NCBI GenBank assembly: GCA_947168725.1
Contig: CAMVNA010000001.1
Coordinates: forward strand, 1-64,000
Length of the DNA: 64,000 bases
Direction of reading: 5' to 3'
DNA from: an uncultured bacterium
GTDB taxonomy: Bacteria; Patescibacteriota; Gracilibacteria; Absconditabacterales; Absconditicoccaceae
Shown here: positions 7,777 through 9,346 of the stretch, one piece after another
Layout of the letters: the number at the start of each line of letters is the position of its first letter
Position numbering within the stretch: the stretch's first letter is position 1
Position numbers and translations under genes: made by a program
The notes under the pieces: generated by a model
The model's database searches: none
The model's input: the letters and a program-made list of their open reading frames with translations, nothing else
Told to the model about the DNA's origin: nothing

Positions 7777-7845
7777 AGATTCAATAGTACTAGAAAGAAA
7801 TTGAGTAACCAGATGTATGATAGGTTATAAGTTGTTTTTTCAAAA

Positions 7846-9346
7846 TTAGAATGGTAGTCTATCCCCACGTTCCCGTAGGGATGCCTTGTTACGACTTAAC
7901 CCCAGTCACTGATTTTCTCCTTAACCCACATTGTAAGTCTTCAAAGAACCTCAGCTCCCATGGTTTGACGGGCGGTGAGTGCAAGGAACAGGGACGTATT
8001 CACGGCAGTATGGCTGACCTGCCATTACTAGCAATTCCAACTTCATGTAGTCGAGTTCCAGACTACAATCCGAACTAGGGGTAGGTTTAAAGATTTGCTC
8101 CACCTCGCGGTATTGCTTCTCGCTGTACCTACCCATTGTATTATCTATGAGGCCCTAGATGTAAGAGGCATGAGGATCTGACGTCATCCTCTCCTTCCTC
8201 TCGGTTACCCGAGCAGTCTCCTTAGACATACTAACTAAGCACGAGGGTTGCGCTCGTTTCCAGACTTAACTAGACACCTTGCGGCACGAGCTGACGACGA
8301 CCATGCACCACCTGTGCAAAGCTCTGTATTGCTACAAATATCATACTTTCATATGAGACACATTGCATGTCAATTCTAGGTAAGATTCTTGGCTTAGTAT
8401 CCAATTAATCTAGATAATCCACTGCTTGTGTGTTCCCCCGCCTATCCCTTTGAGTTTCATTCTTGCGAATATACTACCCAGGCGACTTGCTTAACTCGTT
8501 AGATTACGGCACTCCGACCACAAGGATCGAAACACCTAGCAAGCATAATTTACAGTTTGGACTACCGGGGTATCTAATCCCGTTTGCTACCCAAACTTTC
8601 ATCCCTCACCGTCAAGTTAATCATAGTTAGCTGCTTTCGCTTTCGGCGTTCTTTCCGATATCAACGCATTTCACCGCTCCACCGGAAATTCCACTAACCC
8701 CCAATAACTTCTAGATATGCAGTATCCATTCCCTTTCCACGATTGAGTCGTGGGATTTGAAAACAGACTTACATATCAGGCTACGGATACTTTACGCCCA
8801 GTAAATCCGGATAACGCTTGAGACCTACGTATTACCGCGGCTGCTGGCACGTAGTTAGCCGTCTCTTATTCTTGGTGTACCGTCATTCGTCTTCCACCAA
8901 AAAAGAAGTTTACACACCGTAATGCTTCATCCTTCACGCGGGATCGCTGCATCAGACTTTCGTCCATTGTGCAAGATTCCCCACTGCTGCCTCCCGTAGG
9001 AGTATGGGCCGTATCTCAGTCCCATCGCGGCTGGACATCATCTCAGACCAGCTACCTGTCATAGGCTTGGTGAGCCGTTACCTCAACCAACTACCTGATA
9101 GGACGCACCCCCCTCCTTAAGCGATAAATCTTTCCTCGCATCGGCATTTCACCATCGTGAGCATATTGGGACTTAGCTACGTCTCCGTAGTTGTTCCCAT
9201 CTTAAGGGCAGGTTAGGCACGCGTTACTCGCTCGTTTGCCACTAATTCTACTATGTATTGCTACAACGCAGAATCCGTTCGACTTGCATGTGTTAGGCGT
9301 TCCGCTAGCGTTCATCCTGAGCCAGGGTCAAACTCTTCAAAAAAGT
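7846..9346 (-). rRNA. rrs: 16S ribosomal RNA
   Basis: Contains AGAGTTTGACCCTGGCTCAG, CAGCAGCCGCGGTAAT, GGATTAGATACCC and AAGTCGTAACAAGG; about 1.5 kb. Confidence 0.97.

Follow-up and report, generated by a model that had tools for sequence, protein, structure and literature searches.

Most bacterial ribosomes find gene starts through the anti-Shine-Dalgarno (ASD) sequence of the 16S rRNA. The 64,000-nucleotide stretch analyzed here (the window) carries a 16S rRNA gene whose 3' tail has no recognizable ASD, which raises the questions of whether the loss is real, how it came about, and how such a ribosome might choose its start codons. Our overall explanation, to which we assign a probability of about 0.78, is that the 16S rRNA is functional and that its ASD eroded because the lineage stopped initiating translation through Shine-Dalgarno (SD):ASD pairing. 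The genome under study is referred to below as G000.

Results

The ASD is missing from the sole 16S rRNA gene found

The 16S rRNA gene lies on the minus strand at 9343-7847 and matches Rfam RF00177 (SSU_rRNA_bacteria) end to end (model positions 1-1533, 1344 bits). The 5S gene (9535-9419, minus strand; RF00001, 70 bits) is upstream of it, and the 23S gene (12571-9655, minus strand; RF02541, full length, 2408 bits) is upstream of the 5S, giving the order 23S-5S-16S (12571-7847), with the 16S last. Read from the sequence, the rRNA unit ends in a hairpin and U run resembling an intrinsic terminator (AAACUCUGA-UUUCGG-UCAGAGUUUUU; 7776-7741, minus strand). Duplex energies predict a processing stem between an upstream arm at 9346-9381 and a downstream arm at 7781-7820 (both minus strand), with -60.2 kcal/mol for the 16S flanks compared to -28.6 ± 4.2 kcal/mol for shuffled flanks. 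Because of this long stem, the 16S resembles a normal, matured rRNA.

A preliminary description of the window had placed the anomaly at 7841-7885. The 3' end that it quoted matches the minus strand exactly, and helix 45 with its GGAA loop is intact, as it had stated (ATCCCTAC/GTGGGGAT, i.e., AUCCCUAC / GUGGGGAU; 7882-7861, minus strand, read from the sequence). Its interval does contain the changed tail, but the tail proper occupies 7860-7847 (minus strand), the rest being taken up by helix 45 together with a little of the spacer. In this tail, AGACTACCATTCTA, i.e., AGACUACCAUUCUA, stands where the canonical sequence is GGAUCACCUCCUUA, so that CCUCC has become CCAUU and GAUCA has become GACUA. 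Against the canonical tail and the tails of relatives, positional alignment places the CCAUU, at 7854-7850 (minus strand), where the CCUCC core would be expected, and no CCUCC was found within 100 bases 3' of the tail, consistent with the earlier statement that the usual sequence after helix 45 had been replaced.

A search of the whole 1.07 Mb assembly, which is 91% complete, returned a single SSU match, and the single-contig relatives G032, G042, and G073 likewise gave one match apiece; a second rRNA locus is therefore improbable. Two further species of the genus, G154 and G251, have an identical tail, and in G137, G147, and G258 it is near-identical. The same tail is found in GenBank contigs CAMJSB010000002, CAMJDC010000002, and JAFYHY010000045, the first two of which appear to be the G154 and G251 assemblies. 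JAFYHY010000045.1 (L132) is one of four loci, with L138, L157, and L170, that are filed under Aeriscardovia, Roizmanbacteria, Rickettsiales, and Limnochordia and are probably misbinned, since their 16S tails are of the Absconditabacteria type.

That the assembly is of the metagenome type might suggest that the tail is an artefact of assembly or sequencing, or that this copy of the gene is a pseudogene. However, several independent assemblies carry the identical tail, the exact match in two other species of the genus makes a local assembly error unlikely, the 16S is full length with a processing stem, and the series of tails in the family, described below, is graded and phylogenetically coherent. 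We therefore give this reading almost no weight. Neither a second rRNA locus with CCUCC nor an assembly error, the two findings that the preliminary description named as able to overturn its claim, was encountered, and the analysis confirms that the ASD has truly been lost from the sole 16S gene found in G000.

Genetic code and phylogenetic placement

In 464 kb of G000, open reading frames of at least 100 amino acids cover a fraction of 0.80 under translation table 25 and 0.05 under table 11. UGA is thus read as glycine, as in Absconditabacteria / SR1, and the earlier guess of code 25 was right. A tRNA with anticodon UCA at 346-419 (minus strand), labeled Sec by ARAGORN, most likely reads UGA as glycine. 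In a tree of 50 16S sequences, built with the tail left out, the 29 Absconditabacteria rows form one clade (support 100/100), which includes both the 16S of G000 and G032 (CP006913, SR1 RAAC1).

The 16S tail across Absconditabacteria

When 16S tails were compared across code-25 genomes, as the preliminary description had proposed, CCUCC was missing from 28 of the 29 aligned Absconditabacteria genomes, with G080 the sole keeper in the clade. The cores form a graded series (CCUCC, CCUCU, CCUUU, CCACC, CCAUU), and those of the other 28 rows comprise CCUCU, UCUCU, CCUUU, UCUUU, CUUCC, UUAUC, CUAUC, CUAUU, CCACC, CCACU, CCAUC, and CCAUU; the RAAC1 tail is AGACCACCACCCUA. The sister code-25 families (BD1-5 type) retain UCUCC or UCUCU. 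One further locus with the same type of helix 45 retains CCUCC (L139), on a short, unplaced contig.

Nearly all of the 29 rows follow the pattern RRAYYAYYWYYCUA. Alignment columns 5, 6, 8, 9, 11, and 12 are C or U in 29/29, and two A's and the final A of the tail are invariant. The mean pairwise difference across these rows is 0.21 in the tail columns compared to 0.65 in the 25 columns 3' of the tail, and conservation drops sharply beyond CUA, in agreement with 7847, where the Rfam model also stops. We read this pattern as a pyrimidine tail that is kept under selection, while the pairing core within it is no longer kept.

The order of the rRNA genes is also distinctive. Every Absconditabacteria locus with enough flanking sequence (the window and 10 further loci) has the order 23S-5S-16S, in which the 16S precedes a terminator-like hairpin, and three sister code-25 loci have the usual 16S-23S order. 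In G080 the order is already inverted, yet CCUCC is retained.

Two other features of the tail region were noted. Many relatives have a CUCC...GGAG hairpin 3' of the 16S tail, and similar hairpins between tail and spacer persist in G042 (CACCUUUGUACACUGAGUACAAA; L038) and G165 (AUCUUUAAAGUAAAGAU; L048) though CCUCC is gone. Separately, the code-11 genome G179 (family f5) has the 16S tail GGAACGUUUCUGUACC (L029) and a bS21; this is apparently an ASD loss separate from that of Absconditabacteria.

Scarcity of the SD signal and the order of loss

Starts were called mechanically as the first ATG of predicted open reading frames, and the statistics for G000 come from 464 kb of its 1.07 Mb. AGGAG occurred in 0 of 332 upstream regions, and the SD core was present in 2.2% compared to 1.6% of shuffled sequences, by a measure other than the RNAhybrid cut-off of the published survey discussed below. 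By duplex energy, upstream regions of G000 paired with their own or the canonical tail no better than shuffled leaders, while E. coli, run as a positive control through the identical pipeline, gave z of about -4 to -6. In samples of relatives that are small and partial (50-149 genes each), the SD core was near background in G032, G042, G073, and G080, the last of which has CCUCC, and also in the code-11 relatives G105, G062, and G026, all with canonical CCUCC. In G162 and G067, from the sister families, it was slightly above shuffled (8% vs 3-4%). Among the Absconditabacteria genomes sampled, none had upstream regions that paired with the tail of its own 16S. Since SD is already rare where CCUCC is intact, parsimony suggests that SD loss most likely preceded ASD erosion, although the CCUCC of G080 could in principle be a reversion, which would run counter to this order.

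A U-rich tract precedes start codons

In G000, T makes up 54% of positions -24 to -17 compared to 37% at -60 to -37 (325 starts, p about 1e-72), and the leader is A-rich between this U-tract and the start codon. Internal ATGs show 29% T (n=1960). The tract is present at 52-56% T in G032, G042, G073, and G080 and is weaker, at 32-45% T, in relatives outside the Absconditabacteria clade. We considered whether it could be a promoter element and rejected this, because it is equally strong in operon-internal genes (54% vs 31% T, n=90). Lying some 20 bases 5' of the start codon, the U-tract may instead stand in for the SD. G000 encodes a multi-domain bS1 of 406 amino acids, and U-rich leaders have been discussed as possible bS1 sites by Nakagawa et al. 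(PMC5397173).

A divergent bS21, IF3, KsgA, and Era

In the 30S subunit, bS21 is a neighbor of the 16S tail. Searches of Absconditabacteria with the Pfam profile and with a profile built from CPR sequences found none beyond one likely contaminant, as if bS21 had been lost with the ASD, but this idea was dropped when a profile that included BD1-5 sequences revealed a divergent form; Pfam detects neither this form nor the BD1-5 bS21. The divergent bS21-like protein is 87 amino acids long, has an internal insertion, is strongly conserved, and was found by profile search in 46 of 50 Absconditabacteria genomes. Its genes lie, for instance, at 1468-1743 in locus L212 and at 1465-1728 in both L213 and L215 (all three on the minus strand), with further loci L216-L235. 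Where the surroundings were inspected, they adjoin the genes for IF3, bL35, bL20, IF1, bL36, and uS13. Comparison by hhalign supports its similarity to BD1-5 bS21 (probability 92.9, E 3.7e-7), and its best PDB match, a weak one, is a bS21 chain. The sole ordinary bS21 in the family (L174, contig C236 of G232) lies beside a GGDEF-type gene on a contig whose open reading frames are code 11 and without UGA codons, and is likely contamination.

In the incomplete G000 assembly bS21 was not found. Both IF3, present in 45/50 genomes, and bS21 are missing from the G000 and G154 assemblies, which fits an assembly gap, because the two genes are about 1 kb apart in G251. G000 also encodes KsgA, the methyltransferase of the helix 45 loop, as do 47/50 genomes overall.

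Era, which binds GAUCACCUCC, was considered as a separate candidate cause. A class-wide search found full-length Era in the code-25 sister families (BD1-5 type) and only G-domain matches in Absconditabacteria. Era loss is nonetheless not sufficient, since many code-11 relatives with no full-length Era match keep the canonical tail. Much of the CPR likewise has no full-length Era (PMC10582724).

Alternative readings of the altered tail

The new tail might have been re-targeted, pairing with a new complementary SD in the manner of the rpsU-specific pair in Chryseobacteria. Conservation of the tail within the genus, its remaining pyrimidine-rich character, and a weakly negative duplex difference for G000 in two runs (z -1.8 and z -1.0) are what this reading would predict. 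Yet 52 of 100 permutations of the tail bind the upstream regions at least as strongly as the tail itself, and motifs complementary to the tail UACCAUUCUA (GGTAG, AATGG, GAATGG) occur in <1% of upstream regions. On this motif scarcity and permutation test we reject a new SD as largely refuted. The tail, moreover, varies among genera with no matching upstream change seen, and re-targeting is, overall, very improbable. Initiation could also be mainly leaderless, making any ASD irrelevant; in some prokaryotes, SD loss is accompanied by leaderless translation (PMC10783764). Against this, divergent genes show a peak of TANHAT (-10-like) boxes around -55 to -36, from which most of their mRNAs should have leaders, predicted to be tens of bases long, and the U-tract is found in operon-internal genes too. 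We regard predominantly leaderless initiation as improbable.

A closer competitor is occlusion of the ASD as in Bacteroidia, where bS21 hides an intact CCUCC, with the sequence then drifting behind a specialized bS21. The strongly conserved divergent bS21, its expected position beside the tail, and the absence of SD though some members retain CCUCC are all consistent with such a history. In contrast, the hallmark of this arrangement in Flavobacteriales, an SD-bearing rpsU, was not seen: upstream of rpsU in 18 Absconditabacteria there was no SD core, nor did these regions pair consistently with the tail of the same genome, which also argues against a re-targeted ASD. The failure to find bS21 in the G000 assembly, incomplete as it is, also does not favor occlusion, and we consider it possible but rather unlikely.

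Discussion

The data are best explained by erosion of the ASD in a functional 16S after the lineage abandoned SD:ASD initiation. Under this explanation, SD use would have waned across the wider class at a time when CCUCC was still intact, and the ASD core would then have drifted under relaxed selection as a pairing element no longer in use. The tail itself may have been kept for a structural or maturation role rather than for pairing, for example at the helix 45 junction, in trimming of the 3' end, or in its seat on the 30S platform, which would be next to the lineage's divergent bS21. Start codons would be chosen through unstructured, AU-rich leaders and start-codon pairing with fMet-tRNA, with the U-tract probably captured by bS1 or the 30S platform. 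We infer the mature 3' end of the 16S, the mRNA leaders, and the role of bS1 from sequence, and what replaced SD:ASD pairing is the least certain step. A more specific proposal, in which a remodeled 30S platform with bS1, the divergent bS21, and the pyrimidine tail captures the U-tract as a lineage-specific start system replacing SD:ASD lineage-wide, is tentative and less likely than not.

These observations provide a natural series from CCUCC to no pairing core within one lineage, from which one can read and test whether mRNAs or rRNA abandon SD first. They also separate two roles of the tail, in that the pairing core can change freely whereas the pyrimidine pattern and CUA end are kept, and they offer the U-tract and the divergent bS21 as concrete candidates for the means by which such ribosomes locate start codons.

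ASD loss accompanying SD loss is an established phenomenon, to which G000 adds a case: it was described in 128 taxa in 2018 (PMC6107228), and a 2024 survey counts 112 SD-scarce organisms lacking CCUCC (PMC10783764). The preliminary description left open whether the loss had been reported for this lineage. It has been for two members, SR1 RAAC1 (CP006913; 2% SD) and SR1 Aalborg (7% SD), which Table 4 of that survey gives as SD-scarce and lacking CCUCC, as in G000. The gradient across the lineage, the conserved pyrimidine tail, the U-tract, and the rRNA gene order do not feature in the passages of the survey that were consulted. For these, and for the divergent bS21, we found no report in the open-access literature, a negative that is weak because it covers that literature alone.

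Two better-known groups offer the closest comparisons. Flavobacteriia and Bacteroidia of the Chryseobacterium type are likewise SD-poor, with AU-rich leaders and an ASD that is altered or unused. In Flavobacteriales, however, bS21, bS18, and bS6 sequester the 16S tail, and rpsU has retained an SD, which covaries with the ASD (PMC8710568, PMC9976891), whereas the rpsU of Absconditabacteria has no consistent SD. In Carsonella, Hodgkinia, and some Mycoplasma, the ASD core has been lost along with SD (PMC6107228, PMC10783764), as it has here. Unlike these reduced symbionts, Absconditabacteria have genomes of 1 Mb and keep a 14-base tail pattern lineage-wide, a comparison in which the pattern was tested in Absconditabacteria only.
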